Shown in pieces: positions 2,703 through 22,764 of a stretch of DNA of 64,000 nucleotides; positions within the stretch are counted from its first letter, which is position 1; each line of letters starts with the position of its first letter. Under the pieces are notes generated by a model. It did no database searches. It had not been told where the DNA came from and worked only from the letters and a program-made list of their open reading frames with translations. Position numbers and translations under genes: made by a program. Source of the DNA: Lachnospiraceae bacterium (lineage in GTDB: Bacteria; Bacillota; Clostridia; Lachnospirales; Lachnospiraceae); NCBI GenBank assembly GCA_017450065.1, contig JAFSYI010000083.1, forward strand, positions 1 through 64,000, in the 5' to 3' direction.

Positions 2703-2732
2703 AGAGAATTCATAAACGGGAGGGGGTTGCGT

Positions 2733-4334
2733 ATGAAGCTTACTTTTGTCGGAGCTGCTCATGAGGTTACGGGAAGCTGTCATTTCATCGAGAGCTCAGG
2801 AAAACATATGCTGGTTGATTACGGTATGGAGCAGGGGCTGGATACCTATGAGAATGTACCGTTGCCGGTAGATGCCGCAATGATCGATTATGTGTTTCTT
2901 ACACATGCACATATAGATCATTCGGGACTTCTGCCCTTACTGTATTCCAAGGGATTCAGGGGACAGATATTTGCGACGGAAGCCACCTGTGATCTGTGTA
3001 ACATAATGCTTCGTGACAGTGCTCATATCCAGATGTTTGAGGCAGAGTGGCATAACAGGAAGGCCAAGAGGAGCAGAGACGTAGAGGAATATGTTCCTCT
3101 GTATAACATGCAGGATGCGGACGGAGCCATCAGGTGCCTTGTGCCGTGCAAATATGGCTCGATGGTAAAGGTATGCGATGATATCAGCATACGGTTTACG
3201 GACGTGGGACATCTTCTCGGTTCGGCGGCAATAGAGGTATGGCTTAAGGAAGGCGACGTCAGTAAGAAGATCGTATTCTCAGGCGACGTCGGGAATATCA
3301 ATCAGCCTCTTATCAAGGATCCCGCGACGGTGGACGAGGCGGACTATGTGGTTATCGAGTCCACTTACGGCGACAGACTGCATGACAGAAGCCGGCCTGA
3401 TTATGTGGCGGAGCTTGCGGCGATACTTAAGAAGACCTTTGACAGAGGAGGCAATGTGGTCATCCCGTCCTTTGCCGTAGGCCGTACTCAGGAAATGCTT
3501 TATTTCCTGCGCCAGATCAAGGAAGAGGGTCTTGTGCAGGGGCATGAGGACTTCATCGTATATATGGACAGTCCGCTTGCGGTCGAGGCTACTGGCATTT
3601 TTAACAAGAACCTGTACGAATGCTTCGACGAGGAGGCAATGGAGCTTGTGAACAGGGGGATCAACCCGATAACATTCCATGGACTGTATCTGTCGATAAC
3701 CAGTGAAGAAAGTAAGGCTATCAATTTCGATGACAGACCGAAGGTAATACTGTCAGCATCGGGAATGTGCGAAGCGGGCAGGGTAAGGCATCATCTTAAG
3801 CATAATCTGTGGCGGCCGGAATGCTCCATACTGTTTGTCGGATATCAGGCCGTGGGAACGCTTGGACGCAGTATCGTGGACGGCACGAAAGAGGTAAAGC
3901 TGTTCGGTGAGACGGTGGAAGTGCGCGCCGAGATCATACAGCTTAAGGGACTGTCGGGACATGCGGATAAGGCAGGGCTTACAGCATGGATGCGGGGCTT
4001 TAAGAACGATCCGCAGAAGGTATTCATAGTACACGGTCAGGATCAGGTCTGCGATGACTTCGCCGATTATCTTAAGAAGGAGTACTCATTTGATACGTAT
4101 GCACCCTATTCGGGATCCTGCTACGACCTTGCCAATGATGAGGTTGTGAAAGCTTCCGAAGGAATACGCATCGTGGCAAAGAAAAAGCGCCAGATATCTT
4201 CCGTATTTGAACGTCTGCTGGCTGCCGGGCAGAGACTGCTTACCGTCATTCAGCATAATGAGGGCGGCGCGAACAAGGATCTTGCCAAATTCGCGGATCA
4301 GATTAATTCGCTGTGTGATAAATGGGATCGATAA
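2733..4334 (+). CDS. MBL-fold/beta-CASP RNA-processing-type metallohydrolase
   Basis: Member of the metallo-beta-lactamase-fold RNA nuclease group (beta-CASP, CPSF/YSH1-like), probably a cytoplasmic RNA-cleaving enzyme; the substrate is unknown. The zinc motif HAHIDH is at residues 58-63, DVGHLLGSA near 155, and SGDVGN and ESTYGDR follow. Then come the beta-CASP segment (PSFAVGRTQEML, SASGMCEAGRVRHH) and the C-terminal RMMBL motif GLSGHADKAGL...VHGQ. At 533 aa it has the usual length for the family. ATG 2733 is chosen because GGGAGGGGG at 2718-2726 sits 6 bases upstream; a TTG six bases earlier lies inside that site. It probably shares a transcript with the amidase upstream and thyA downstream. 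Confidence 0.88.
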   Translation: MKLTFVGAAHEVTGSCHFIESSGKHMLVDYGMEQGLDTYENVPLPVDAAMIDYVFLTHAHIDHSGLLPLLYSKGFRGQIFATEATCDLCNIMLRDSAHIQMFEAEWHNRKAKRSRDVEEYVPLYNMQDADGAIRCLVPCKYGSMVKVCDDISIRFTDVGHLLGSAAIEVWLKEGDVSKKIVFSGDVGNINQPLIKDPATVDEADYVVIESTYGDRLHDRSRPDYVAELAAILKKTFDRGGNVVIPSFAVGRTQEMLYFLRQIKEEGLVQGHEDFIVYMDSPLAVEATGIFNKNLYECFDEEAMELVNRGINPITFHGLYLSITSEESKAINFDDRPKVILSASGMCEAGRVRHHLKHNLWRPECSILFVGYQAVGTLGRSIVDGTKEVKLFGETVEVRAEIIQLKGLSGHADKAGLTAWMRGFKNDPQKVFIVHGQDQVCDDFADYLKKEYSFDTYAPYSGSCYDLANDEVVKASEGIRIVAKKKRQISSVFERLLAAGQRLLTVIQHNEGGANKDLAKFADQINSLCDKWDR

Positions 4335-7701: not shown

Positions 7702-9447
7702 ATGGATGAAAAGAAGGTCATGATGCTCGGTAATGAGGCGATAGCCAGGGGAGCATATGAAGCCGGAGTGAAGGTTTCGGCGGCATATCCCGGAACACCC
7801 AGTACCGAGATAAGTGAGAACATAGTTAAATATAAGGATGAGCTTTACTGCGAATGGTCGCCCAATGAAAAGGTTGCGACAGAGGTTGCGATCGGTGCGT
7901 CGATGGCCGGCGTGCGTTCACTTGTTTCCATGAAGCATGTCGGAGTCAATGTGGCGGCAGATCCGCTGTACACGGTTTCGTATATAGGAGTAAACGGGGG
8001 ACTCGTGCTGGTGGCGGCTGACGATCCCGGAATGTACAGCTCACAGAATGAACAGGATTCAAGGATGGTGGCAAGGGCGGCTCAGGTTCCTGTCATTGAA
8101 CCGTCAGATTCGCAGGAAGCCAAGGATTTCATTAAATTCGCATATGAATTAAGCGAGAAATATGATACCCCGGTGATATTCAGGACAACGACCAGGCTTT
8201 CACATTCACAGGGACAGGTTACGCTTGAAGAAAGGCAGAACATAGAGGATAAGCCTTATGAGCGTAATATAGCGAAGAATGTCATGATGCCCGGTAATGC
8301 CAAGCTCCGTCATATTGCGGTTGAGGAGCGTGAGAAGCGGCTGATCGAGGATTCGTGCGATTTTCCCATAAACAGGGTGGAGATGAATGATACAAAGATC
8401 GGCGTTATCACAAGCGGTATACCCTATCAGTATGTTAAGGAAGCTCTGCCGGATGCATCCGTGCTTAAGCTCGGACTCGTAAATCCTCTTCCGAGGAAAC
8501 TGATCGAGGACTTCGCGTCAAAGGTGGAAACCTTATATATCGTCGAGGAACTCGATCCCCTGATCGAAACGCAGGTAAGATCGTGGGGTATCAGGGCGAT
8601 AGGAAAGGAAATATTCACAATACAGGGTGAGTACAGCGCAAATATGCTGAGGAAGGCTGTGCTGCATGAGGATCCCGATATCAGGGAGGAGGCAAAGGTA
8701 CCCGGGCGTCCGCCCATACTTTGTCCCGGCTGCCCCCACAGGAGTGCCTTTACGGTACTTAACAAGCTTAAGCTTCATGCTGCGGGTGATATAGGCTGTT
8801 ATACTCTCGGTGCCGTACCGCCGTTAGGCGTAATAGACACGACTGTCTGCATGGGATCGAGTATTTCCACTCTTCACGGTATGGAGAAAGCGAAAGGGAA
8901 GGATTATATAAAGAACTGGGTTGCCGTGATCGGTGATTCGACCTTCATGCATACCGGAGTGAATTCACTTATAAATATGGTTTACAATCAGGGAACCGGA
9001 ACGGTTATGATCCTTGATAATTCAACAACCGGAATGACCGGACATCAGGATCATGCTGCCACGGGCAAGACTCTTCAGGGTGAAGAGGTTCCTGCGATAA
9101 ACATTATGGAGCTGTGCAGGGCCATAGGTGTTAAGAATGTTTATGAGATAAATGTTTTTGATACAGAGGGTCTTGAGAAGCTTATAAAGCAGGAGATCGC
9201 CAGGGATGAAGTATCTGTCATAATAACAAAGACGCCCTGTGTGCTTCTTAACAAGACACCCATAACGCATACATGCCGGGTGGATGAAGAGAAGTGTAAA
9301 AAGTGCGGTATGTGTATGAAGCCCGGATGTCCGGCGATCACCAAACTGGCAAACGGCTTCACCAGGATCGATACCAAGATGTGCAACGGCTGCGGTCTGT
9401 GCAAGAGCCAGTGTAAATTCGGAGCGATAGAGGACGTTCCTGTTTAG
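7702..9447 (+). CDS. iorA: Indolepyruvate:ferredoxin oxidoreductase, alpha subunit
   Basis: Large subunit of the TPP-dependent enzyme that oxidatively decarboxylates aryl pyruvates (from Trp, Phe, Tyr) to acyl-CoA with ferredoxin as acceptor. The N-terminal half is the pyrimidine-binding region (AYPGTPSTEIS, SMKHVGVNVAADP). The TPP part has CPGCPHRSAF, GDIGCYTLG and GDSTFMHTGV. The C-terminus (about 525-575) carries two 4Fe-4S motifs, CKKCGMCMKPGCP and CNGCGLCKSQC. At 581 aa it is of normal length. iorB follows after 57 bases, across an imperfect inverted repeat (9450-9484). Confidence 0.93.
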   Translation: MDEKKVMMLGNEAIARGAYEAGVKVSAAYPGTPSTEISENIVKYKDELYCEWSPNEKVATEVAIGASMAGVRSLVSMKHVGVNVAADPLYTVSYIGVNGGLVLVAADDPGMYSSQNEQDSRMVARAAQVPVIEPSDSQEAKDFIKFAYELSEKYDTPVIFRTTTRLSHSQGQVTLEERQNIEDKPYERNIAKNVMMPGNAKLRHIAVEEREKRLIEDSCDFPINRVEMNDTKIGVITSGIPYQYVKEALPDASVLKLGLVNPLPRKLIEDFASKVETLYIVEELDPLIETQVRSWGIRAIGKEIFTIQGEYSANMLRKAVLHEDPDIREEAKVPGRPPILCPGCPHRSAFTVLNKLKLHAAGDIGCYTLGAVPPLGVIDTTVCMGSSISTLHGMEKAKGKDYIKNWVAVIGDSTFMHTGVNSLINMVYNQGTGTVMILDNSTTGMTGHQDHAATGKTLQGEEVPAINIMELCRAIGVKNVYEINVFDTEGLEKLIKQEIARDEVSVIITKTPCVLLNKTPITHTCRVDEEKCKKCGMCMKPGCPAITKLANGFTRIDTKMCNGCGLCKSQCKFGAIEDVPV

Positions 9448-9449
9448 AC

Positions 9450-9484
9450 TATAGTAAACGAAATAAATAAATTCGTTCACTATA
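9450..9484 (+). other. Inverted repeat between iorA and iorB
   Basis: Arms 9450-9462 and 9472-9484 pair over 13 positions with one A-C mismatch and an AT-rich 9-nt loop, just ahead of the iorB ribosome binding site. It has no T-run, so it is more likely an mRNA stability or processing hairpin than a terminator. Confidence 0.5.
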
Positions 9485-9504
9485 ATAAAAGAAAGGCAGT
9501 ATAA

Positions 9505-10074
9505 ATGGAAACCAGAAATATAATGATCGTAGGCGTGGGAGGACAGGGAACCCTTCTTACGAGCCGTATTCTTGGCGGTATCATGCTCGGAGCGGGATAT
9601 GATGTAAAGATGAGTGAGGTTCACGGAATGGCCCAGCGCGGAGGATCGGTAGTTACCTTCGTCAGATACGGAGACAGGGTGGCCGAGCCTATAGTTGAAG
9701 AAGGACAGGCTGATGTGCTCATAGCCTTTGAGCAGCTGGAAGCCATGCGTTATGCACATTTCCTTAAGAAGGACGGGGTTCTTATCGTTAATACGCAGAG
9801 GATAGATCCGATGCCTGTGGTGATAGGAGCCGCAGAGTATCCGGAAGGAATCGTTGAAGCACTCAAAAAGGATCATAAGGTTATTGACGTGGATGCAATG
9901 AGTGAGGCGGTTAAGCTTGGCAATCCCAAGGTATTTAATGTGATCGTCCTCGGGGTTGCGGCAAGACATATGGATTTTTCAAAGGAACAGTGGTTTGAAG
10001 TCATCGAGAAGACGGTAAAGCTGAAGTTCGTTGAGATGAACAAGCAGGCATTCGAAGCAGGGTATTCCATGTAA
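9505..10074 (+). CDS. iorB: Indolepyruvate:ferredoxin oxidoreductase, beta subunit
   Basis: Small (gamma-type) subunit of the same complex as iorA. The protein has 189 residues. It opens with IMIVGVGGQGTLLTSRILGG, the glycine-rich nucleotide-type motif of the POR-gamma domain, and has MSEVHGMAQRGGSV and EPIVEEGQADVLIAFE further on. The ATG follows gaaaggcag. It ends 4 bases from the convergent aminotransferase gene with no visible terminator between them, so the two transcripts probably overlap. Confidence 0.93.
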   Translation: METRNIMIVGVGGQGTLLTSRILGGIMLGAGYDVKMSEVHGMAQRGGSVVTFVRYGDRVAEPIVEEGQADVLIAFEQLEAMRYAHFLKKDGVLIVNTQRIDPMPVVIGAAEYPEGIVEALKKDHKVIDVDAMSEAVKLGNPKVFNVIVLGVAARHMDFSKEQWFEVIEKTVKLKFVEMNKQAFEAGYSM

Positions 10075-10078
10075 ATGA

Positions 10079-11176
10079 TTAAGACATAACGGAGCTTATG
10101 ACCGACAGAAGCCTGTCATTCATTTCGGGCATCATGAAGCAGACCCTGAAGAATTTGTTGTCAAGGAAGGGGAAGGTACAGCAGTTCCTTATCATCATCT
10201 TTTCCCTTATACATGCATCAAACAGTATATCGGCTGAAAGGTGCTCGTTTTCTATCTTAACAAGAACAAAGTTAGCTGAGGGCTCATATACCTTGAGCCC
10301 TTTTGTTTTTGAAAGGGCATCCGTTACACGGCGGCGTTCACTGCTTATAAGAGACTTGGTCTTCTGTATGTATTCTTCATCCGTGAACATAAGCTGACCT
10401 GCCGCTTCTGCTAGGGAATTGATCGTCCACGGATTCTTGCGTGAGTTGATCGCCTTGATCAGATCGCGGTTGCCCGTGATACCGTAGCCGAGACGCAGTC
10501 CCGGAGCTGCGAAGAACTTGGAGATACCGCGGAGTATTATTATATTGTTATAGTACTGCGTAAGCGGAATGGAATCAACTTCATCATAGTTTTCGGTAAA
10601 TTCAATGTAGGTTTCATCCACCATGACGAAGATGTCATTCTGTTTGCAGACATCGAGGATCTTCCTCATTGATCTGCGGCTTATGCAGGTTGATGTCGGG
10701 TTGTTCGGGTTGCACATTATAAGGAGATCGATACTTTCGTTAAGCTGGGATGAAAGACTCTCCGGGTCGAGAACGAAATTATCCTCCTCCTTCAGCGGGA
10801 AGTAGAGGCTCGTGCCTCCGCCGAGGGCTACCTCGCGTTCGTATTCGGAATAGGTGGGGCCGACGATCAGAGCTTTCTTCGGATGCTCTATCTGAATAAA
10901 AAGAGAGATCAGCTCCGTGGATCCGTTGCCGACTATGATGTTTTCGTACTCGCTTCCGCAGTAGGATGCGATGACCTTACGAAGAGAGGTATATTCGCGG
11001 TCGGGATAGCCTGTTATGACGTCGAGATGCTCGGAAAGAGTACTGCGCATCCTGCCCGATATTCCAAGAGGGTTTACGTTTGCGGAGAAGCTTATTATTT
11101 CTTCTTTTTTTATTCCGTAGATCTTCTCGATCTTTTCAAGATCGCTTCCGTGAAAATGGTCAGAATGCTGTAGCAT
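10079..11176 (-). CDS. Class I/II PLP aminotransferase, HisC/CobD type
   Basis: Fold-type I PLP enzyme. The opening HGSDLEKIEKIYGI...SFSANVNPLG resembles CobD (threonine-phosphate decarboxylase) more than HisC. No cobalamin or histidine genes lie next to it, so the substrate stays open. Visible features are GNGSTELI, CNPNNPTS (155-162), VDETYIEF, and SKFFAAPGLRLGYG with the PLP lysine at residue 220. The C-terminal domain has FPFLDNKFFRVCF. Start ATG 11176 has aaggag about 11 bases upstream. It is transcribed divergently from the large unknown gene that follows. Confidence 0.8.
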   Translation of the reverse strand: MLQHSDHFHGSDLEKIEKIYGIKKEEIISFSANVNPLGISGRMRSTLSEHLDVITGYPDREYTSLRKVIASYCGSEYENIIVGNGSTELISLFIQIEHPKKALIVGPTYSEYEREVALGGGTSLYFPLKEEDNFVLDPESLSSQLNESIDLLIMCNPNNPTSTCISRRSMRKILDVCKQNDIFVMVDETYIEFTENYDEVDSIPLTQYYNNIIILRGISKFFAAPGLRLGYGITGNRDLIKAINSRKNPWTINSLAEAAGQLMFTDEEYIQKTKSLISSERRRVTDALSKTKGLKVYEPSANFVLVKIENEHLSADILFDACIREKMMIRNCCTFPFLDNKFFRVCFMMPEMNDRLLSVISSVMS

Positions 11177-11191
11177 TTGTTTTTTATCTCC

Positions 11192-11221
11192 TTGTCTGAT
11201 TTATATCGGGTATGTTATACT
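11192..11221 (+). promoter_or_regulatory. Promoter of the DUF5717/DUF5716 four-gene cluster
   Basis: TTGTCT (11192-11197), 18 bases, then an extended -10 TGtTATACT (hexamer 11216-11221). Transcription would begin near 11228, giving a very short leader before the GTG at 11248. Confidence 0.5.
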
Positions 11222-11247
11222 CTAATTTGATTAAAGTCAAGTAAAGT

Positions 11248-14200
11248 GTGGTGAGGAACTTGAATGAGATAGTAGATAAACTTGTTAACGGGTTTTTCGA
11301 TTATGAAAGCGGAAAGCTCTCTTTTTCTGTGTCCAGAATTGAAGAAACGCTGGAAACGGGAGAGGTTTTCGAGGGTTCTTTTGCCATTGACAGTAATGAC
11401 GGACTCCCCGCCTCAGGCAGTATTTATACCTCCAGCATGCGGCTTGTATGCCGTATGGAAAGCTTTAATGACAGTCATGTTGAAGTGAAGTTCATGTTTG
11501 ATACGACGGGACTCGAACCGGGCGACATTGTAAAGGGAGATGTCCAGATAGTATCGGATAAGGGTGAATATTATATCCCGTTCGCATTCTCGATAGTCCG
11601 CAGTATCGTGAAGAGCTCCCTGGGAAATGTAAAGAATCTCTTTCATTTCACCAATCAGGCTCAGACGGACTGGAAGGAAGCAGTGAACCTTTTCTATTCA
11701 AAGGAATTCAGACAGATCTTTGACGGGAATGAAAGAGTTCACTTCTCCAAATACAGAGGCATGAGCAACCGTGACGGTAATGAAGAGAGCGTTGATGATT
11801 TCCTTATTTCAATAAACAAGAAACAGCCGGTTCTTTTCAGCGTGGACAAGACATATCATGAGATAACGGATATAACCGAGACCTTAAGATGTGAGCTTCC
11901 GCTGCGCAGATCGACATGGGGTTACGTGCATCTTGAGGTAAGTACGGACTGCAGCTTTATAAGGCTTGAAAAGAAAGAGCTGACAGCTGATGATTTCCAG
12001 GGTAATATAAGCCGTTTTGTCTTCTTCGTGGAAGAGGACATGCTGCATGAAGGAAAGAATTTCGGACGGCTGATCTTTAAGGGGCATCATCAGACCCTGG
12101 CGGTAACGATCGTAGCGTCAAAGAGGATGAGCAATGAGGGACTGAGGATCGAAAGACGCGAGAAACGGAACCTCACCATGCGTCTCATGCGCTGCTATAT
12201 TGCCTTCAGGACGAAGCATATTAATGTTAATACATGGGTCAGGGATTCACTTAAGATCGTTGAGAGGCTCAACGTTCTGGATGACAGGAATCCCGAGTCA
12301 AGACTGTTCCAGGCGCAGCTTCTGCTGGTTTCGCAGCGTTATAATGAAGCAAAATGGATAATAGATCATGTGGGCAACGATCTTCAGATACAGAGGAAGG
12401 AGCCCACCATATACAGCTACTACCTTTATCTGACAACGCTTTATATGCGTGATGATGCATATATAAACGAAGTCGCCGAAGAGGTTGCCAGGCTTTATGA
12501 GAAGCATCCGGATGACTACAGGATATTATGGACCCTGCTGTATCTCGATGAGGACCTTTCGGAGAATCATTCCCGAAAGATAGAGCTTATTGAAGAGCAG
12601 TATAAGAGGGGCTGCAGGAGCCCGATAATCTATGTTGAAGCGTACCAGTACTATGTTATCAATCCTGCTACCCTGAACAGGCTCGGCAGCTTCGAGGTAC
12701 AGATACTTACATGGGCCGCAAAGAACGGTCTTATGAATAATGAGCTGTGCAGGCAGATCCTGTATATATGTTCAAAGTCCAAGGAGTATAACAGGTCAGT
12801 ACTGAATCTTCTTATAAAGATATACAGGATCAATGAAGAGTCTGATGTTGTCGGAGCCATCTGTTCGATGCTTATAAAGGCCGACAGGACAGACAGGGCG
12901 TGCTTTAAGTGGTACAGTCTTGGCGTAAGCAACGAGCTTCGCATAACCAAGCTGTATGAATACTATATGCTTTCGATCCCTCTTGAGAAGGATGAGCTGC
13001 TTCCAAAGCCTGTGATCATGTATTTCGGATTCAGGAACAAGATGGATTATGTGCATATCGCGTATTTATATGCGAACATGCTCAAGCACAGATTTGAGGT
13101 AATGAGGCTGTGCGATGAATATGAGCAGAGGATGCGTGATTTTGCTCTTGAGCAGGTGCATAACGGAAGGATAAACAGGGATCTTGCATACCTGTATGAG
13201 CAGATACTTACTCCGGAGACCATCCATCCGGATATAGTAAACAGCTTCGTAAAGCTGCTGTTTTCCTATGATGTAAGAGTATCGAACCCTTCAATAAAGA
13301 AAATCTGCGTGATACAGGAAGAGTTCGAGGGAGAAGGCATCTATCCGGTGGAGAACGGCCATGCATATCCCGAGATATACAGTAACAGTTATCTGGTGTT
13401 CGGCGAGGATGAGGATGGCAGACGCATGCTCCTGCCGCTTGACAGTGTGCGGGGGCTTATAGAGGAAGGGCCGTACATACCGTATATAAAGGATTATGTC
13501 ACGGACAATCCCGGATTCAATCTGTATCTGTGCAACGGAAGAGGACACTATATAAGCGTTGATGACGATAATGTCGATGCATGCAGGAATCTCGTTGATT
13601 CGGTCGATATCAAGGAGAACTTCAAGCGTGATGTACGAATGGAGCTCCTCAGGCATTATTATGACAATAATGAGATATCCACGCTCGATGAATTCCTTCT
13701 CAGCATAGATCCCAAGGTGCTGACCGTAAAGGACAGGGCGGAGCTTCTCGGATATTTTGTTATGAGGGGAATGTATGACGAGGCTTATGAGATCATAACC
13801 ATTTACGGGGCTGAGAAGGTTCCGGTAAAGACGGTGGTCAGAATATGCTCGCATATGATAGGCAAAAAAGAAGAGCTGTATGATGTGATGCTTGTAAAGG
13901 TGGCATATCATGCATTTATAAACGGTAAATATGACGTGCTTACTCTTGAATATCTCGTTGAGCATTTCAACGGGCTTACGAAGGAGCTCAGGAATCTCTG
14001 GAAGGCGGCAAGACAGTTCGATGTCGACTGCTTTGCGCTTATGGAGAAGCTCATAATCCAGATGATCACTACGGGAACGACCATCGGAGAGAAGGAAGAG
14101 CTGTTTGAGGAATATGTTAAGAGCGGATCCAATACGAAGGTCGAACTGGCATATCTGTCATATTGTGCCTATGATTATTTCGTTAAGGACAGAATGCTTG

Positions 14201-14814
14201 ATGCAAGGGTATTTGAACATCTTGCCAAGAATTACAGGCGGGGGGAGGAGCTCAATGATGCCTGCAAGCTGGCTCTCCTTAAGCATTACACGGAAGAGAA
14301 GAAATCGATAGATCAGCGTACGGCGGATATGATCAGGGAATTCCTGAATGAATTCTCGGGAAGAAGTATTTATTTTGCATTCTTCAAGGATTATATCGGC
14401 GTGCTTAACGGACTGTCTGATTTTAAGGATAAAGTGATAATTGAATACAAGACGGCTCCCACGACAAGGGTAATGCTCCATTATATTATTGAGAACGGTG
14501 AAAACGGCGACAATTACCATACGGAAGAAATGAGGAATATGTACGGCGGTATATTCGCGAAGGATTTCATTCTTTTCTTCGGCGAGAATCTGCAGTACTA
14601 CATTTCGGAGGAAGCAGGCGGCGAGGAGTACCTGACGTTCTCCGATTCGGTATCTGTCTCCGACAATGTTGTCGAGGGCGGCGGGTCAAGGTATGCGATG
14701 ATAAATGATATGGTAGTGGCAAAGACGCTTCAGGATGATGATACCCTCATGCAGCTCATGGAGGAGTATGTAAGGGAGGAATGCTTTGCCAAACGGGCAT
14801 TCACATGCTTATAA
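11248..14814 (+). CDS. Large DUF5717-like protein (1188 aa), unknown function
   Basis: I recognise this only as one of the very large proteins of unknown function typical of Lachnospiraceae (DUF5717 from memory). No signal peptide or TM segment is visible, so it is probably cytoplasmic. Residues about 15-120 and 195-300 look like two beta-sandwich domains. From about 310 onward the protein is alpha-helical with TPR/SEL-like hairpins (for example RLFQAQLLLVSQRYNEAKW near 350). A second beta-containing insert lies near 690-790, followed by more helical repeats and a short beta-rich C-terminus. It has few cysteines and no recognisable catalytic motif, which suggests a scaffold. The start is unsure: GTG 11248, GTG 11251, or TTG 11260 just after gagga. 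It leads three more genes with gaps of 10-20 bases. Confidence 0.75.
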   Translation: MVRNLNEIVDKLVNGFFDYESGKLSFSVSRIEETLETGEVFEGSFAIDSNDGLPASGSIYTSSMRLVCRMESFNDSHVEVKFMFDTTGLEPGDIVKGDVQIVSDKGEYYIPFAFSIVRSIVKSSLGNVKNLFHFTNQAQTDWKEAVNLFYSKEFRQIFDGNERVHFSKYRGMSNRDGNEESVDDFLISINKKQPVLFSVDKTYHEITDITETLRCELPLRRSTWGYVHLEVSTDCSFIRLEKKELTADDFQGNISRFVFFVEEDMLHEGKNFGRLIFKGHHQTLAVTIVASKRMSNEGLRIERREKRNLTMRLMRCYIAFRTKHINVNTWVRDSLKIVERLNVLDDRNPESRLFQAQLLLVSQRYNEAKWIIDHVGNDLQIQRKEPTIYSYYLYLTTLYMRDDAYINEVAEEVARLYEKHPDDYRILWTLLYLDEDLSENHSRKIELIEEQYKRGCRSPIIYVEAYQYYVINPATLNRLGSFEVQILTWAAKNGLMNNELCRQILYICSKSKEYNRSVLNLLIKIYRINEESDVVGAICSMLIKADRTDRACFKWYSLGVSNELRITKLYEYYMLSIPLEKDELLPKPVIMYFGFRNKMDYVHIAYLYANMLKHRFEVMRLCDEYEQRMRDFALEQVHNGRINRDLAYLYEQILTPETIHPDIVNSFVKLLFSYDVRVSNPSIKKICVIQEEFEGEGIYPVENGHAYPEIYSNSYLVFGEDEDGRRMLLPLDSVRGLIEEGPYIPYIKDYVTDNPGFNLYLCNGRGHYISVDDDNVDACRNLVDSVDIKENFKRDVRMELLRHYYDNNEISTLDEFLLSIDPKVLTVKDRAELLGYFVMRGMYDEAYEIITIYGAEKVPVKTVVRICSHMIGKKEELYDVMLVKVAYHAFINGKYDVLTLEYLVEHFNGLTKELRNLWKAARQFDVDCFALMEKLIIQMITTGTTIGEKEELFEEYVKSGSNTKVELAYLSYCAYDYFVKDRMLDARVFEHLAKNYRRGEELNDACKLALLKHYTEEKKSIDQRTADMIREFLNEFSGRSIYFAFFKDYIGVLNGLSDFKDKVIIEYKTAPTTRVMLHYIIENGENGDNYHTEEMRNMYGGIFAKDFILFFGENLQYYISEEAGGEEYLTFSDSVSVSDNVVEGGGSRYAMINDMVVAKTLQDDDTLMQLMEEYVREECFAKRAFTCL

Positions 14815-14826
14815 GGTGGGGACTTA

Positions 14827-16239
14827 ATGGACGGTAATACAAGATATGTGATCGGATACGATCTTAATGACATACAGGTTCAGATAAGCTATTTTGAGCT
14901 AAATAAAAAGCGCAGGGGCAAGCTGGTATCAGACGGAGAGAATGAGAGACTGGGTGTGCCTACGGTTCTCTGTAAGCGGAAGAGTGTTAAACAGTGGAGC
15001 TTCGGTACGGAAGCACAGAGGCTTATAAGACGAGACGGAGAGGCTGAGGTAAATAAGCTTCTGAGCCTTGCACTGTCGGGGAGATCCATTACGATCGATG
15101 GTGAGGATTTCAACGGTATCGATCTTCTTATCCTGTTTGTGAGGAAGACACTTAAGCTTCTGTCTGTTTATGTCTCCGTGGAACAGATAGACAACTTTGT
15201 ATTTACCGTTCCAGAGCTTAACAGGGATGTTCTTTCAGTTCTTGAGAGAGTGGCTGCGGCTGTTCCGGTGGAAAGGAGCAGGATCCTGTTCCAGAGCTAC
15301 AGCGAAGCCGTATACTGTTATATGATCCACCAGCCGGAGGAACTGTGGGATCCGGAATGCGTGATATTCAATCATGACGGTAAGTCAATGACGGCTTATC
15401 ATATGCAGATGAACCACAGGACAACACCTGTCGTTGGCGTAATAGACAAGACGGTATATGACGGACTCAGCATTCCCGATATGAGTACGTATTATGACGG
15501 GGAGGATGATGAATACGGTGACGATGACGTGGATGGCAGCAGGCCTTCGGATGATGAGAAGGGGCAGGGTGGAACCGGAACACAGGAAGAGCTTCATGAC
15601 CTGAAAAATGCCAGAATGATGATCTCATCCGAAAAAGAAATAGATGCGATGGACGAGGAGCTTTACGGCATTGTGCATGATTTCCTTATCACCCGTACCA
15701 TCCGTTCGGCTTACCTTCTGGGACCCGGCTTTGACGGTGAATGGTGTAAGAAGACCATCGGATTCCTGTGTATGGGACGAAGAGTATTCCAGGGGAACAA
15801 TATGTATTCCAAGGGTGCATGCTATTACGGTATGGATAAGCTGTATCCGTCGGAGATCAATAAAAGGTATATTTTCCTGGGAGAGGATAAGCTTAAGTTC
15901 AATCTTGGCATATATATTGACAGGAAGGGTAAGGAAGAATACATTGCGCTGGCTGACGGCGGAGAGAACTGGTATGACATAAGCGCTGAGGTGGAATTCC
16001 TTCTGAAGGGCGGAAGCAAGGTCCAGCTTATAGTGACCCCGCTCGACGGCAAGGAAATAAGAGTTATGGATATCGTTCTTGACGGACTTCCGGACAGGCC
16101 GACGAAAACAACACGCCTTAAGCTCTGGGTTATGTTCTCATCGGGAAATACGCTTAAGGCAATTGTCAAGGATATGGGATTCGGTGAAATATTCCAGTCT
16201 TCGGGACTTGCGTGGGACAGGGAATTGACGATAGAATAG
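14827..16239 (+). CDS. DUF5716-like protein with divergent Hsp70/actin-type ATPase fold
   Basis: A 470-residue protein that I read as a degenerate Hsp70/actin-fold member. Signposts occur in the right order: a phosphate-1-like VIGYDLND (8-15), FVFTVPELNRD (125-134), the SYSEAVYCYM segment (157-166) in place of Hsp70's EPTAAALAYG, a phosphate-2-like VIFNHDGKSMTAY (179-191), the adenosine-motif-like AYLLGPGFDG (295-304), and YSKGACYYGM (327-336). An acidic, low-complexity loop fills 224-257. Residues 345-470 are beta-rich, in the place of a substrate-binding domain. The canonical DLGTT and DLGGGT motifs are not kept, so ATP hydrolysis is doubtful. It lies 12 bases after the 1188-aa gene. The fold call is inference; the DUF number is recalled. 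Confidence 0.7.
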   Translation: MDGNTRYVIGYDLNDIQVQISYFELNKKRRGKLVSDGENERLGVPTVLCKRKSVKQWSFGTEAQRLIRRDGEAEVNKLLSLALSGRSITIDGEDFNGIDLLILFVRKTLKLLSVYVSVEQIDNFVFTVPELNRDVLSVLERVAAAVPVERSRILFQSYSEAVYCYMIHQPEELWDPECVIFNHDGKSMTAYHMQMNHRTTPVVGVIDKTVYDGLSIPDMSTYYDGEDDEYGDDDVDGSRPSDDEKGQGGTGTQEELHDLKNARMMISSEKEIDAMDEELYGIVHDFLITRTIRSAYLLGPGFDGEWCKKTIGFLCMGRRVFQGNNMYSKGACYYGMDKLYPSEINKRYIFLGEDKLKFNLGIYIDRKGKEEYIALADGGENWYDISAEVEFLLKGGSKVQLIVTPLDGKEIRVMDIVLDGLPDRPTKTTRLKLWVMFSSGNTLKAIVKDMGFGEIFQSSGLAWDRELTIE

Positions 16240-16258
16240 CTGGTTACGGGGAGAAAGC

Positions 16259-17101
16259 ATGTCTGATCTGTTATTATGCCGGGGAGCAGCGGCGGAAAGA
16301 CCATATTATATATCGGTGCTTGGTATAAATATATATTCGATTGAGGAACTCTGTTACCTGATATCGCAGAACGCGTATACGATCGATCAGGATTTCATGG
16401 ATGAGGGGCTGTGCCGGTATATCGGCGATCAGCTTAAGCTGACGGATCTGGCAGAAACCCTTAAGGAGATCATTGACAACAAAGGCTCGCTCATAGACTT
16501 TGTCATGGCAATCCTTAAGGATGCGGGTTACTGTGATAAGGATGAGATCAGGAATATCAAACAGATAGTTATAGAGAGCGCCGGGCTAAGCCCTTCAAGA
16601 AAGCACAAGAGCAGGGGGGATAATCTGCTCAAGGCAGGGAAGCTTGTAAGAGCAATGGATGAATACAAGGTGACTCTCGGCAAGATAGACAAGGAGGCCG
16701 AGCCGGTCCTTTATGCATCGGTACTTCACAACACGGGCACGGCATACGCGAGGCTTATGCTCTATGAGAAGGCGGCCGGGAATTATCTTGAAGCGTATAA
16801 GCTGAACATGGATGATGAATCTCTTAAGATGTATCTTCTCAGCTGCAGGCTGTACATGGACAGGATGGATTACGACAGACTTCTGCTCAAATACGGCTAT
16901 CCGGCAGAGATCGCCCAAAAGGTAGAGAAGCTGATGGCAACAAGGGAGGATTACAGGCGTTCGGACAATAAATATGCAAAGGATTTAAATGAGCTTAAGC
17001 AGCTTAAAGAGGACGGGATGATCAGCCGGTATTACGAAACGGTGGATGAGACCATCGAGGCATGGAAGTGGGATTACAGGATGGACATGATGCCGCACTA
17101 G
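16259..17101 (+). CDS. TPR-repeat protein of the four-gene cluster, unknown function
   Basis: A 280-residue soluble protein with no named homologue that I recognise. Residues 1-110 form an alpha/beta region beginning YYISVLGINIYSIEELCYLI. Residues about 115-200 contain TPR-like helices (GDNLLKAGKLVRAMDEYKV, LHNTGTAYARLMLYEKAAGN). The C-terminal 80 residues are charged and helical. The ATG at 16259 has ggagaaag upstream and lies 19 bases from the Hsp70-like gene. The TPRs make it a plausible adaptor to the Hsp70-like protein. Confidence 0.75.
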   Translation: MSDLLLCRGAAAERPYYISVLGINIYSIEELCYLISQNAYTIDQDFMDEGLCRYIGDQLKLTDLAETLKEIIDNKGSLIDFVMAILKDAGYCDKDEIRNIKQIVIESAGLSPSRKHKSRGDNLLKAGKLVRAMDEYKVTLGKIDKEAEPVLYASVLHNTGTAYARLMLYEKAAGNYLEAYKLNMDDESLKMYLLSCRLYMDRMDYDRLLLKYGYPAEIAQKVEKLMATREDYRRSDNKYAKDLNELKQLKEDGMISRYYETVDETIEAWKWDYRMDMMPH

Positions 17102-17111
17102 GAGCACTGCT

Positions 17112-18371
17112 ATGGGTTTGATAGATCTTATTAAGGAAAAACTGGGCTTCGATGATGAAGAAGATGATGACGAACTTGATTTCGGCATAGGCGTGTATGA
17201 TGATGAGGACGATGAGGATGAAGATGCCGAACATCTGACTGACAGGCTTAAGCATATGCCGGTAAGACGGGCGGATATCAACATTCTTGATTACCGGGAG
17301 AGAGAGCTGTTCGTAAGAGACCGCTGTGAGCAGATGAAAGCTGCCGCAGATGACATGGCGGGACAGAGACAGGAGTATGAAAGGATAACCCAGCAGCTTG
17401 CGGATATTGATGAGGTATGTTCACTTTCGCTTACCAGATTCAGCGAGCTTAAAAGACTGGCTAAACGAATAGAGAAGATACAGGAAGACGAAAAGAAATA
17501 CGAAAGACCCCTCAGCAAGATAACGGAATCCCAATACCGTGACATGGAACGCAGGGAGAAGGAAATCCCTGACGTGATAAAGAAGATGCAGGCTGAGGAG
17601 AACCACCAGATGTCCATAAAGAGGGATCTTAATCTCCTTGAGGGCGAGAAGGGGGCGCTTGCTTTCCAGCGAAGGGAAGAGAAACGAAGGGCTTCGAACG
17701 CAAAAGCGCTTGCTTTTATCTGTACTCTGGTATCGGTCATGGCCGTTGCGCTTCTTTTTATCCTTCATACCACTCTTAAATTCGATGTGCGGATGGGATA
17801 TTATATAGTACTTGCATTCTTCTGTATGTCGCTGACGGGCGTGTGCGTATCGTTCAAGAATGCCCAGGACTCGCAGGTAAGTACCGAGAAGAAGATAAAC
17901 AGGGCGATAACGCTTCAGAACAGTGTTAAGATAAAATATGTTAACGCCACGAATCTTATTGATTTCTACTATACGAAATATAATGTGAACAATTCATACG
18001 AGCTGTCTTATATGTGGGAGAAATATCTGGAAGAAAAGGCTGCCAGGAACCATTCGGAAGAGGTGGCTGCCAAGATGGAGAACGCCCGCAGAGAGCTGAT
18101 GAAGGAGCTTAACAACTACCGTCTGAATGATGCGTCGATATTTGTATACAGGACAGAGCTGCTGACGGACGACGAGGTAATGCAGAGCGTCAGACGCAAG
18201 ATGATAATCCAGCGCAAGAAGCTTAAACAGGGAATGGATCTGAATAATTACAGTATGGATATGTGCAGGGAGCAGATCGAAGCCATTGTGCATGAATATC
18301 CCAGATTCGCCGGTGAGATTATGGCAATAGTCAGACAGTATGAATCTCTTGATAAAACAGAAGAAACATGA
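17112..18371 (+). CDS. Two-TM coiled-coil protein of the four-gene cluster, unknown function
   Basis: A 419-residue protein. The first 45 residues are extremely acidic (runs of Asp/Glu at 14-23 and 30-42). Residues about 60-190 are a long charged coiled coil. Two adjacent hydrophobic helices follow (about 197-218 and 227-247), then a second helical, charged cytoplasmic region to the end. The topology suggests both ends inside the cell with a short hairpin in the membrane. It would be the membrane anchor of the cluster. It starts 10 bases after the TPR gene and ends 5 bases from the convergent PilZ gene. I cannot assign a family. Confidence 0.75.
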   Translation: MGLIDLIKEKLGFDDEEDDDELDFGIGVYDDEDDEDEDAEHLTDRLKHMPVRRADINILDYRERELFVRDRCEQMKAAADDMAGQRQEYERITQQLADIDEVCSLSLTRFSELKRLAKRIEKIQEDEKKYERPLSKITESQYRDMERREKEIPDVIKKMQAEENHQMSIKRDLNLLEGEKGALAFQRREEKRRASNAKALAFICTLVSVMAVALLFILHTTLKFDVRMGYYIVLAFFCMSLTGVCVSFKNAQDSQVSTEKKINRAITLQNSVKIKYVNATNLIDFYYTKYNVNNSYELSYMWEKYLEEKAARNHSEEVAAKMENARRELMKELNNYRLNDASIFVYRTELLTDDEVMQSVRRKMIIQRKKLKQGMDLNNYSMDMCREQIEAIVHEYPRFAGEIMAIVRQYESLDKTEET

Positions 18372-18376
18372 TAGTA

Positions 18377-18742
18377 TCATTCATTGGCTGCAGTATGGTT
18401 CATGCGTGCTTCGTAATCATCGAGCATCTTGGACACGCGGGGTGAAATGGAAGTGAATTCGCAGCCGTACTGATAGCGGTTCCCCGGCAGAGCCTGACTG
18501 CGGATTATCCGCAGATCGGTTATTATCTGCGGAAGATCCCTGCTGAGCTCAATGTTGGATATAAAGCAGCTGCCGACCGGAAGTACGGCTTCACAGATAA
18601 AGCCCAGTCCTCTTGCGGAAATATCGGTAACCTCAATGGGAGAGGATATGTCAACTACATCAAGGCTGTTTTCGGTATACAGATCGGATACTGAGAGCGC
18701 TATATTGACCGGTATCCTTTTTTCTTTACGCTTTTCATTCAT
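18377..18742 (-). CDS. PilZ-domain c-di-GMP receptor
   Basis: A single PilZ domain of 121 residues. The N-terminal RKEKR (5-9) fits the RxxxR ligand motif, and DISARG fits D/NxSxxG, so c-di-GMP binding is expected. No extra domain is present. It is convergent with the four-gene cluster, and its start region faces purB. A role in relaying c-di-GMP, perhaps to the flagellar motor or the cell surface, is inference. Confidence 0.88.
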   Translation of the reverse strand: MNEKRKEKRIPVNIALSVSDLYTENSLDVVDISSPIEVTDISARGLGFICEAVLPVGSCFISNIELSRDLPQIITDLRIIRSQALPGNRYQYGCEFTSISPRVSKMLDDYEARMNHTAANE

Positions 18743-18815
18743 TGACGTTCACCTCATAAACAGTGACGGTTTGGATTGTATATCATTATTGTAACTATAA
18801 AGAAAGGAAAATGCA

Positions 18816-20246
18816 ATGACAAACAGATATGTCAGTCCGTTGTCGGAAAGATACGCAAGTGAGGAGATGCAGTATATCTTTTCACCCGATATGAAATTCA
18901 GAACATGGAGGAGACTGTGGATAGCCCTTGCGGAAACAGAGAAAGAGCTGGGCCTTAATATAACACAGGAGCAGATAGATGAGCTTAAGGCTCACGCCGA
19001 TGACATTAATTATGATGTCGCGAAGAAGCGTGAGAAGGAGGTAAGGCATGACGTAATGAGCCATGTGTATGCTTACGGCGAACAGTGCCCCAAAGCAAAG
19101 GGTATCATACATCTTGGAGCCACTTCCTGTTATGTGGGTGACAACACGGATATAATCGTTATGACGGAGGCGCTTAAGCTTGTAAGAAAGAAGCTTATAA
19201 ATGTTATATATGAGCTTTCGGGCTTTGCGGATAAGTATAAGTCGCTGCCCACGCTTGCTTTTACACATTTCCAGCCTGCACAGCCTACGACCGTGGGTAA
19301 GAGAGCCACGTTGTGGATGAATGAGTTCATGCTCGATCTCGAGGAGCTTGATTTCGTGCTTTCAACGATGAAGCTGCTCGGATCGAAGGGAACCACGGGA
19401 ACACAGGCAAGCTTTCTCGAGCTTTTTGACGGAGATCAGGAGAAGATAGATAAGATAGATCCGATGATAGCCGGGAAGATGGGCTTTAAGGAGTGCTATC
19501 CCGTATCAGGGCAGACATATTCGCGTAAGGTGGACACAAGGGTGGCCAATGTGCTTGCCGGTATCGCTGCCAGCGCTCATAAGTTTTCCAATGACATAAG
19601 ACTGCTGCAGCATCTTAAGGAGGTGGAAGAACCCTTCGAAAAGAGCCAGATAGGTTCATCGGCGATGGCTTATAAGCGTAATCCGATGAGAAGCGAGAGA
19701 ATAGCATCCCTGAGCCGTTACGTTATGATCGATGCGCTTAATCCCGCGATAACCTCTGCTACCCAGTGGTTTGAGAGAACGCTTGACGACTCGGCGAATA
19801 AGAGACTTTCAATACCGGAAGCCTTCCTTGCAACGGACGGTGTGCTGGATCTGTGTCTCAATGTTGTGGATGGGCTTGTTGTCAATGACAAGGTTATAGA
19901 TAAGCATCTTCGCAGTGAGCTTCCGTTCATGGCAACGGAGAATATCATGATGGATGCTGTAAAGGCAGGCGGTGACAGACAGGAGCTCCATGAGCTGATA
20001 AGGGAACTGTCCATGAAGGCTGCAAAGAATGTTAAGCAGAACGGCGGCGAAAACAATCTGTTAAAGCTTATTGCGGATGAGCCGGAGTTCAATATGACCT
20101 TAAATGAGCTTAACAAAACCATGGATCCCGCAAGATATGTGGGACGCGCACCGCAGCAGGTGGACGCTTATCTTAAGAATGTGATTCAGCCGATGCTTGA
20201 CGGGAACAAAGACGTGCTCGGAATGCATGCGGATATTAATGTATAG
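18816..20246 (+). CDS. purB: Adenylosuccinate lyase
   Basis: Purine biosynthesis enzyme acting on SAICAR and adenylosuccinate. The protein has 476 residues. RYASEEMQYIFS at the N-terminus, GATSCYVGDNTD, HFQPAQPTTVGKR and the fumarase/lyase signature SSAMAYKRNPMRSE (catalytic loop) are present. ATG 18816 follows aaagaaagg. purA is next, 43 bases downstream, so the two AMP-forming steps are paired. Confidence 0.95.
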   Translation: MTNRYVSPLSERYASEEMQYIFSPDMKFRTWRRLWIALAETEKELGLNITQEQIDELKAHADDINYDVAKKREKEVRHDVMSHVYAYGEQCPKAKGIIHLGATSCYVGDNTDIIVMTEALKLVRKKLINVIYELSGFADKYKSLPTLAFTHFQPAQPTTVGKRATLWMNEFMLDLEELDFVLSTMKLLGSKGTTGTQASFLELFDGDQEKIDKIDPMIAGKMGFKECYPVSGQTYSRKVDTRVANVLAGIAASAHKFSNDIRLLQHLKEVEEPFEKSQIGSSAMAYKRNPMRSERIASLSRYVMIDALNPAITSATQWFERTLDDSANKRLSIPEAFLATDGVLDLCLNVVDGLVVNDKVIDKHLRSELPFMATENIMMDAVKAGGDRQELHELIRELSMKAAKNVKQNGGENNLLKLIADEPEFNMTLNELNKTMDPARYVGRAPQQVDAYLKNVIQPMLDGNKDVLGMHADINV

Positions 20247-20289
20247 TAAAGGGCTGATTATTTAAACCGGAAGGACAGGAGGAACTGAG

Positions 20290-21567
20290 ATGGTAAAAGC
20301 AATAGTAGGAGCCAATTGGGGTGATGAAGGTAAGGGCAAGATGACGGATATGCTGGCTCAGGAGGCGGATATAGTCGTACGCTTTCAGGGCGGCGCCAAT
20401 GCGGGACATACAATAGTAAACAAGTACGGGAAGTTCGCGCTGCATACTTTACCATCAGGCGTATTTAATGAAAATGTTACAAGCATTATCGGTAACGGCG
20501 TTGCACTGAACATCCCGATCCTGTTTAATGAGATAAAGGATATCATGTCAAAGGGTGTTCCGGAGCCGAAGCTGCTTATTTCGAACAGGGCGCAGATGGT
20601 TATGCCGTACCACATTGATTTTGATACATATGAGGAAGCGAGACTTGCAGGTAAATCCTTCGGCTCGACCAAGTCGGGTATAGCACCGTTCTATTCGGAC
20701 AAATATGCCAAGATAGGCTTCCAGGTAAGCGAGCTGTTTGATGATGAGGCTGTGCTCAGGGAGAAGATCGGGAGAGTATGTGAGATCAAGAATGTAATGC
20801 TTGAGGATCTTTATCATAAGCCGAAGCTTGACGAGAATAAGCTGTATGAGACAATGATGGAATATAAGAAGATGGTGGAGCCGTATGTATGCGATACATC
20901 ACTGTATCTGTGGAACGCGATTCAGGAGGGCAGGAATATCCTCCTTGAGGGTCAGCTTGGTTCCCTTAAAGACCCTGATCACGGAATCTATCCCATGGTT
21001 ACATCATCATCCACTCTTGCGGCATACGGAGCAATAGGCGCAGGACTTCCTCCGTATGAGATAAAGCAGATAATCACCGTGTGCAAGGCCTATTCATCGG
21101 CTGTGGGAGCAGGAGCATTCGTGTCCGAGATATTCGGTGAAGAAGCGGAAGAATTAAGAAACCGCGGCGGTGACGGAGGCGAATACGGTGCCACAACAGG
21201 CCGCCCGAGACGTATGGGATGGTTTGACTGTGTGGCAAGTAAATACGGCTGCCGCATTCAGGGAACTACCGATGTGGCATTTACGGTTCTGGATGTACTG
21301 GGTTATCTGGATGAGATCCCGGTATGTACGGGCTATGAGATAGACGGCAGGGTTACTACGGATTTCCCCGTGACATCACTTCTTGAAAAGGCTAAGCCGG
21401 TACTTGAAGTCCTTCCCGGATGGAAATGCGACATAAGGGGAATAAAGAAGTATGAGGATCTTCCCGGGAACTGCCGTAAGTATATAGAGTTTATCGAGGA
21501 AAAGATCGGATTCCCGATCACCATGATAAGCAACGGTCCTTCGAGGGACGATATAATCTACAGATAA
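20290..21567 (+). CDS. purA: Adenylosuccinate synthetase
   Basis: GTP-dependent ligation of IMP and aspartate. The protein has 425 residues, normal length. The N-terminal P-loop is GANWGDEGKGK, followed by RFQGGANAGHT, the LLEGQLGSLKDPDHG region, the GATTGRPRRMGWFDC region and the C-terminal GPSRDD. ATG 20290 follows aaggacaggaggaac. Together with purB it forms a two-gene AMP unit. Confidence 0.95.
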   Translation: MVKAIVGANWGDEGKGKMTDMLAQEADIVVRFQGGANAGHTIVNKYGKFALHTLPSGVFNENVTSIIGNGVALNIPILFNEIKDIMSKGVPEPKLLISNRAQMVMPYHIDFDTYEEARLAGKSFGSTKSGIAPFYSDKYAKIGFQVSELFDDEAVLREKIGRVCEIKNVMLEDLYHKPKLDENKLYETMMEYKKMVEPYVCDTSLYLWNAIQEGRNILLEGQLGSLKDPDHGIYPMVTSSSTLAAYGAIGAGLPPYEIKQIITVCKAYSSAVGAGAFVSEIFGEEAEELRNRGGDGGEYGATTGRPRRMGWFDCVASKYGCRIQGTTDVAFTVLDVLGYLDEIPVCTGYEIDGRVTTDFPVTSLLEKAKPVLEVLPGWKCDIRGIKKYEDLPGNCRKYIEFIEEKIGFPITMISNGPSRDDIIYR

Positions 21568-21642
21568 TGGTTTACATAAATCAAACATCATTTTCTGCCG
21601 GCTTATGTTTAAAGGGTACGGCGGATGGAATGATCAGGTATA

Positions 21643-22764
21643 GTGCAGATGTTGCTTAGAGCGCTGAATGATATATGGATAGCTCTGCGGAAGTTCGATG
21701 AGCAGGCTTTGGGCTTTACCTGCAGAGCTGTTATTGTATATACATTTATCATACTGGCAGTCAATCTTATACAGAGGCTGCGTGGAAAGAAGTACCAGAA
21801 GATATGGCAGATGGCATTGTCCATCTGTCTCTTTGGCGTTCTGTGTGTTTATATGTCTTATCTCGTGGGGCTGACCCTGTCGGGAAGAGAGCCGGGGAGC
21901 AGGACCAATAAGATCAATCTTGAAATACTCGGAACATGGCGTTCGGACGGTACGTTGTCACAGCATGCCGCGGAGAATGTCCTGCTTTTTATCCCGTTCG
22001 GCATACTGGTCCCGCTTACAACAAGGTTCTTTAAGAAATGGTGGAACCTGATCCTTATAGCCTTTATCTCCAGTATGCTTATCGAGATGACACAGCTTAT
22101 AACGGGTAGAGGTTATTTCGAGATCGATGACATACTTCTTAACACGGGCGGTGCGATCCTTGGCTATATCGTATTCTGGGCAATATATCACAGTTACATA
22201 GCATTTAAGCATGAATCACAGCTGCCTTTAAGCCGTAATGAGCAGAGGCTTAACAGGATAACGCTGTTCATAATCCAGCTGCTTCCCGTTATACTGATGA
22301 TAATGCTCATATTCGGATTCGGAAGCGAGAATGCGGATAATTCGGGAGCTCTGAGTGCATTTGTCACCGAGAAGCTTCTGTATGTTGTAAATAAGCTGAT
22401 GCGGTTCGGATGGACGGCAGAGAAGATCCAGAAATCGGTTCCGGTGTATGAAGGCTTTGTCAGGAAGGGCGCTCATTTTGCCGAGTTCGGAGTGCTTACG
22501 ATGTTTACCTTTGTGTTCTTATACTGCAGGAGGCTCAGGAATATATTTTCTTTCATTCTGTCATTTCTGCTGGCGCTGGTGCTGTCTGTGGCTGATGAGA
22601 TCAACCAGGGATATGTTGATGGCAGGAACAGGTCTTTTAAGGATGTCGGTATAGACTGTCTCGGCTCTCTGACCGTGCTTTTTATTATCTTTGTGATCCT
22701 TGTCCTTATAAGATTCTATAATGCTCACAGCAAGGTGAAGCAGGGACTTGAAATGTTTAAGTAA
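21643..22764 (+). CDS. VanZ-family membrane protein with two VanZ domains
   Basis: A 373-residue polytopic membrane protein. The first VanZ-like unit (about residues 75-190) has [17 protein letters not shown], the [20 protein letters not shown] segment and a GG..LGY ending. The second (about 265-360) has [12 protein letters not shown], the [22 protein letters not shown] segment and CLGSL. Single-domain VanZ proteins are the common form. VanZ confers low-level teicoplanin resistance in enterococci; most homologues have no proven role. The start is GTG 21643, or ATG 21649 two codons later, which suits the weak caggt site slightly better. It lies between purA and lepA. Confidence 0.8.

Follow-up and report, generated by a model that had tools for sequence, protein, structure and literature searches.

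What is it that a tight row of four genes does for a bacterium when two of those genes belong to Pfam families without an assigned function, and from what did such a row arise? The question is posed by a 64,000-nucleotide stretch of a Lachnospiraceae genome (assembly GCA_017450065.1, contig JAFSYI010000083.1, positions 1 to 64,000; here, 'the window'), in which open reading frames A through D follow one another on the + strand within positions 11,192–18,371, separated by gaps of 12, 19 and 10 bases:

11248–14814, + strand: gene A, 1188 amino acids, GTG start, DUF5717_N plus DUF5717
14827–16239, + strand: gene B, 470 amino acids, DUF5716, pseudo-Hsp70, orthologue of H2 (see below)
16259–17101, + strand: gene C, 280 amino acids, TPR protein
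17112–18371, + strand: gene D, 419 amino acids, acidic, two-helix membrane hairpin, optional

An earlier note on this DNA had proposed a chaperone-like scaffold at the membrane, perhaps a cytoskeletal or envelope-assembly complex. The answer argued for here, in which belief and doubt are about balanced, is that the cluster is the reduced descendant of a multi-Hsp70 chaperone machine, i.e., an ATP-independent scaffold built on a pseudo-Hsp70. The origin of the cluster from a multi-Hsp70 locus is a new result.

A Larger Cluster in Other Families

Families of the same order beyond the window's own have orthologues of A, B, C and, in some cases, D that stand on either side of two Hsp70s, an Hsp70 joined to a von Willebrand A (VWA) domain, and a GrpE fusion. 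The fullest order is A1-A2-H1-GrpE fusion-H2-H3-H4-C-D, with A of the window corresponding, in most of these families, to two separate genes. The members are as follows:

A1: N-terminal part of A, about 400 amino acids
A2: rest of A, about 900 amino acids; a single gene together with A1 in a few loci, e.g., L047
H1: Hsp70, about 558 amino acids
GrpE fusion: about 280–660 amino acids, GrpE being C-terminal in members with a Pfam match
H2: DUF5716 pseudo-Hsp70
H3: Hsp70, about 546 amino acids
H4: Hsp70 fused to a VWA domain, about 690–720 amino acids
C: TPR protein, about 390 amino acids

H1, H3 and H4 have intact nucleotide-site residues, with H1 and H3 extending merely about 115–121 residues beyond their ATPase domains. 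PDB matches of the GrpE fusion are to GrpE at its C-terminus and to apolipophorin or designed helix bundles elsewhere.

Further loci come from a scan of named genomes with an H1 alignment, of which the best 80 of 134 matches were considered; this thus is not a census. Among those 80, at least 51 H1 loci stand at 56–100% identity, after which identity falls to 33% or less. Titles of the 51, mostly metagenome-assembled genomes (MAGs), include Defluviitalea phaphyphila, Petrocella sp., Vallitaleaceae, Candidatus Epulonipiscium, Defluviitaleaceae, Eubacteriaceae and one 'Turicibacter', the remainder being unclassified Clostridia or Firmicutes; Defluviitalea and Petrocella belong to the order Lachnospirales according to NCBI. 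Twenty-nine of the 51 are fully flanked (at least 4.2 kb upstream and at least 9 kb downstream), and 18 of these 29 carry A2, the GrpE fusion, H2, H3, H4 and C. Seven of the 51 loci have as their last member a D orthologue in which the hairpin is kept, placed after C in four and after H4 in three where C was undetected (E-values 1e-30 to 1e-37). In another locus of the larger cluster, L045, H4 (1340–3384) is split into two frames, by sequencing error or by real decay.

Across 398 genomes from the phylum a profile of the H4 tail had no convincing match, and the machine therefore looks specific to the order. Two of those 398 genomes did yield matches outside of the order, at 75–76 bits in frames of 1650 and 1832 amino acids, which were taken to be other VWA proteins.

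Gene B as a Degenerate Hsp70

B matches DUF5716_C (PF18980) at 2e-91, just as A matches DUF5717 over its full length (PF18984 at 2e-289, PF18983 at 1e-104), so both of the family names given in the earlier note hold. The structure model of B, on the + strand, divides as follows:

~14839–15879: ATPase-domain fold
15418–15627: low-confidence insert
~15898–16230: substrate-binding beta domain, with no lid following

That is, the model combines a two-lobed ATPase-domain fold with a substrate-binding beta domain, as does an Hsp70, the lid being absent. Nucleotide-site residues are largely missing besides. Seven of them were scored (those of phosphate loops 1 and 2, along with the catalytic Lys and Glu); B of the window keeps one of the seven and no B or H2 sequence keeps more than two. 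The catalytic Lys is found in none of 74 B sequences and in none of 48 H2 sequences.

In the tree B is nested inside H2, with H3 as sister and with 100/100 support for B plus H2. H2 of locus L067 matches both PF00012 (2e-16) and DUF5716_C (2e-25). B descends from H2, an Hsp70 whose catalytic residues were already lost. The earlier description of B as a degenerate Hsp70 is thus borne out in modeled fold, in descent, and in absent nucleotide-site residues. As judged from these residues, B should not be able to cycle ATP.

Conservation and Linkage in Lachnospiraceae

Among 150 genomes of the window's family, one per genus, DUF5717_N (that is, A) is found in 147, mostly as a single match per genome, and DUF5716_C (B) in 145. 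Counting good genomes alone, A is found in 123 and B in 122 of 125, with neither found in two of them (G614 and G675). More broadly, 94 of 196 genomes sampled across the order have DUF5717_N, as do five of 398 from the phylum, all five belonging to the window's own family.

Linkage was followed by a six-frame profile scan of 73 family loci, one per genus, with room around A. Thirteen came from an earlier set and 60 were hand-picked down the ranking of A matches for contig room, which makes this a non-random draw. A and B are present in all 73, C in 72 and D in 29, with A, B and C in that order and on one strand wherever C was found. DUF5717 and DUF5716 accordingly are neighbors across the family, as the earlier note had it, and linkage is kept far outside of close relatives, indeed into further families of the order, so that the first refuting condition set in that note does not hold. 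Where the D profile has no match, in 44 family loci as well as in one f8 locus, no following protein bears D's two central hydrophobic segments; what comes next there looks like valS, a solute-binding protein gene, purB and others, as judged by eye from first residues, with three identified by Pfam. As D is present in 29 loci versus 72 for C, A-B-C is the core unit and D is optional.

That other genes often stand in D's place, and that some distant loci miss members, are what one would expect were these simply four unrelated genes sharing a transcript. The A-B-C order nonetheless holds in 72 of 73 genera despite protein identities to the window of only about 21–38% (13 loci), and the same genes cluster in other families. 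In addition, B and C form one open frame of 690–727 amino acids, containing both domains, in five of the 73 loci (L163, L169, L179, L198 and L209). Such single frames are a classical hint of two proteins working together. A merely shared transcript consequently is a very improbable explanation.

Two more specific roles were considered and set aside. The SpoIVA ATPase (PF09547) is found in 42 of 60 family genomes, and all 18 without it, the window's genome included (3.2 Mb, 88% complete), have A; the cluster therefore does not serve sporulation alone. Flagellin, similarly, is found in 34 of the 60, with A present in 25 of the 26 that lack it, arguing against a role in motility. Sporulation and motility genes vary across the family, that is, while A hardly varies.

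Probable Loss of the Catalytic Hsp70s

Profiles of H1, H3, H4 and the GrpE fusion gave a single match, of 30 bits, across the 73 family loci. Over 60 whole family genomes the H1 profile reached at most 208 bits, its best matches being to DnaK-type frames of 584–660 amino acids, with shorter partial frames also among the matches; complete H1 genes score 851–1116 bits with a similar H1 profile. The GrpE-fusion profile gave five matches in the same 60 genomes, of 26–38 bits, all at the GrpE end and in frames of 206–245 amino acids, i.e., ordinary GrpE. Loss within the window's family is the simplest reading of this, since B lies inside H2 while H1, H3 and H4 form separate, older clades.

Could the cluster instead be a conflict (defense) system or the remnant of one, which may still sense infection? 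Hsp70, GrpE, vWA and TPR parts are the grammar of NTPase-chaperone conflict systems, and nuclease, PIN, kinase-like and dynamin domains do occur in Hsp70 arrays from outside of the order. The cluster proteins scanned (A–D of the window, those of the L067 and L045 clusters, and a small number besides), however, showed neither GAP1 nor a GTPase or effector domain, nor did A–D have a PADLOC match, and A's near-universal, mostly single-copy occurrence is unlike that of a patchy defense system. A shared ancestry for H4 and the Peribacillus and Ureibacillus Hsp70-VWA proteins was also rejected, with a p-value from the approximately unbiased test (p-AU) of 7e-47 for the constrained clade, in a tree that has one very long row. 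A conflict system thus seems unlikely.

The outside arrays are worth describing in their own right. L135 (164–21282; Peribacillus kribbensis) has a row of several Hsp70-like genes, an Hsp70-VWA fusion, a colicin-DNase/WHH protein, two dynamin-family GTPases and a TPR protein, and looks like a multi-Hsp70 conflict-type system. L142 (3367–12028; Ureibacillus xyleni) pairs an Hsp70 array including a weakly kinase-like Hsp70 protein with an Hsp70-VWA fusion, and L124 (415–10511; a Desulfobacterales MAG) has an array with a PIN-Hsp70 fusion. Several L142 and L124 Hsp70s pair with those of L135 in the tree, their VWA members not being sisters of H4. In PADLOC, H1, H3, H4 and the Hsp70-VWA protein of L135 match PDC-M61B, and only weakly.

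Genes A, C and D

An AlphaFold2 model of A has a mean predicted local distance difference test score of 83.7 and divides, on the + strand, into:

11314–11631 (residues 23–128): PapD/ASH/MSP-like beta-sandwich
11836–12123 (residues 197–292): second beta-sandwich
12226–13260 (residues 327–671): TPR-like helical solenoid, first half
13264–13455 (residues 673–736): beta insert within the solenoid
13477–14427 (residues 744–1060): helical solenoid, second half
14431–14655 (residues 1062–1136): C-terminal beta-sandwich

The two N-terminal beta-sandwiches and the helical repeats are as had previously been supposed; the beta insert and the third, C-terminal sandwich had not been listed, and it is in the latter that most of the A positions invariant across families sit. 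With a profile built from A and distantly related sequences, designed TPR/PPR proteins were matched, at best at 8.5e-24. Kinship to a known multi-domain protein was rejected, Foldseek TM scores by query being 0.16 or less, with only ASH/MSP/PapD domains and TPR-type solenoids matched. The VIA-align match list is filled by the first beta-sandwich, so that this comparison covers chiefly that part of A.

D has only sub-threshold Pfam matches, hence no accepted family, and in NCBIfam the best matches of C and D are far under cut-off, with A and B having none. D does possess two hydrophobic segments, at residues 200–218 and 230–248 (transmembrane positions ~17709–17765 and ~17799–17855), consistent with the two-transmembrane protein that it had been called. 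Another membrane protein, c8, which has weak coiled-coil-type matches, stands 5' of A1 in several distant loci (L048 5770–7155, L052 4683–5975, L055 13828–15150, and others) and is perhaps a second kind of membrane anchor. Homology of D to c8 was not accepted (hhalign probability 1.9%, E 0.025).

It is with D and the sandwiches of A in hand that a cytoskeletal or envelope-assembly complex may be weighed, with B as an actin-like filament anchored by A and D. In its favor are the actin/Hsp70 ATPase-domain fold of B, the membrane hairpin of D, and the resemblance of A's first beta-sandwich to ASH/MSP/PapD domains, some of which are structural. The B model, however, keeps the Hsp70 substrate-binding beta domain, its descent is from Hsp70, and D is dispensable. 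As B and its ancestor H2 lack the residues for binding and hydrolyzing ATP, an ATP-driven, actin-like filament is improbable. The cytoskeletal part of the earlier suggestion consequently is not supported, and the complex as a whole appears quite unlikely.

Proposed Mechanism

Computation shows the order of the genes and their orthology, that catalytic residues were lost, that B is modeled with an Hsp70 fold, that B and C can share a single frame, and that H1, the H4 tail and the GrpE fusion are absent from sampled family genomes. We infer, in turn, that A, B and C form one complex, along with that complex's binding partner and location. In the window's family A1 and A2 form one gene, neither the three catalytic Hsp70s nor the GrpE fusion is present at the locus any longer, and A, B and C are left as a near-universal core. 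B would then serve as a fixed adaptor in the shape of an Hsp70, gripped by C and by A's solenoid, with the PapD/ASH-like beta-sandwiches of A binding a client or target, and with D, where present, tethering the complex to the membrane. The complex as such might act as an ATP-independent holdase or assembly scaffold. Alternatively, it may pass clients on to housekeeping DnaK, in a manner resembling that in which Ssz1 aids the Hsp70 and J-protein that it partners.

A chaperone-like scaffold, that is, fits best among the earlier suggestions, and gains strength from sister families, in which these genes sit together with true Hsp70s and a GrpE fusion. That it is a family-wide housekeeping chaperone machine with its engine removed, i.e., with ATP-hydrolyzing Hsp70s and GrpE fusion lost but a pseudo-Hsp70 kept along with its A–C scaffold, we would put at an even chance.

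A number of points weigh against this interpretation. B of the window by itself has no Pfam Hsp70 match at E 0.1, and the alignment behind its model included five true Hsp70s (H3) besides 36 H2. The H4 tail was found in none of 60 family genomes at E 1e-10 in a search without a positive control, and the search for H3 covered the 73 family loci only. C of the window displays a single weak TPR, sub-threshold in the Pfam scan (0.013); the C orthologue of L067, at about 390 amino acids, has several clear ones. The relative placement of A's domains is unsure given a predicted template modeling score of 0.46. Membrane tethering cannot be general, as 44 of the 73 loci yielded no D, which alone among the four is a membrane protein, and the placing of the scaffold at the membrane is weakened to that extent. 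The larger cluster, lastly, is not indivisible, since 11 of the 29 flanked H1 loci are incomplete at the cut-off used, three of them missing all other members:

L086, L090, L099: H1 alone
L082, L083, L085: H1, GrpE fusion and H2, with no A detected
L081, L094: H3, H4 and C not detected
L106, L113: C not detected
L114: H2 and C not detected

The first six of these are MAGs titled Defluviitaleaceae in whose flanks no A was found, suggesting other routes of reduction or dispersal.

Promoter and Flanking Genes

The four + strand genes with their short gaps are just as previously described. The single extended -10 promoter said to precede them is present as a site:

11192–11221, + strand: candidate TTGTCT-18-TATACT with TG before the -10, 9 of 12 consensus bases, between A and a divergent aminotransferase gene

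Such sites, however, occur at about the chance rate (30 observed within 8000–22000 versus 24.1 expected, standard deviation 5.0), so this one is plausible only by its position, in a gap between divergent genes.

The aminotransferase gene (10079–11176) has CobD as its best NCBIfam model, at 283.3 bits versus a cut-off of 290.55. A CobD/HisC-like aminotransferase gene lies divergently beside A in the window, in 29 of the 73 family loci, and in 17 of the 51 H1 loci (L071–L121), which in several families of the order may reflect either ancestral synteny or a shared promoter. Downstream, a PilZ gene (18377–18742) converges upon D from five bases away. Beyond it (18816–21567) are two genes judged by eye to be purB and purA; purine genes are found 3' of the cluster in a few other genera as well.

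Significance and Comparison with Known Systems

Should the above interpretation be correct, this would be the first bacterial complex centered on a pseudo-Hsp70, and its source would be a previously undescribed Lachnospirales machine of multi-Hsp70/GrpE/VWA type. Two Pfam families without function, near-universal in one large bacterial family, thereby gain an origin and a testable role, and the family-wide core genes of these hard-to-study anaerobes a concrete chaperone candidate. The progression from a complete machine, in which H2 is already dead, to one that has lost its engine but retained the dead Hsp70 is, in addition, a natural experiment on how an Hsp70 may act without ATP.

A and B are plain members of DUF5717 (PF18984, PF18983) and DUF5716_C (PF18980), whose Pfam descriptions mention neither a function nor a connection with Hsp70 or with an Hsp70/GrpE/VWA cluster. 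In open-licence PubMed Central full text no paper about the cluster was found by title, nor any functional one. With Hsp70 itself (PF00012; DnaK, HscA), B shares descent and, as modeled, fold, but is without lid and catalytic residues; H1, H3 and H4 are Hsp70s, though H1 and H3 are short after the ATPase domain and H4 bears a VWA domain.

The nearest described neighborhoods are those of GAP1-N2 conflict systems (Kaur et al. 2020, PMC7159879). In part of the firmicutes and actinobacteria, as that paper describes, GAP1-N2 neighborhoods contain HSP70 and GrpE along with TPR proteins and another HSP70 that lacks the peptide-binding domain, with vWA proteins present in other themes of the same systems. 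HSP70, GrpE, a variant second HSP70, vWA, TPR and beta-sandwich parts are shared. The present cluster differs from what is described there in its scanned proteins being without GAP1, GTPase and effector, and in being near-universal in the window's family rather than scattered.

A last comparison is with Ssz1 of the eukaryotic ribosome-associated complex (RAC), of which a ribosome- or translocon-linked co-chaperone feeding the housekeeping DnaK would be a bacterial counterpart. No J-domain match, however, was found in the cluster proteins scanned, and the structural match does not single out Ssz1, since DnaK itself has the same Z; such a counterpart is accordingly unlikely. B, moreover, is derived from a bacterial paralogue. 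The likeness would be one of logic, Ssz1 being an atypical Hsp70 that serves as partner and adaptor, as is proposed for B.

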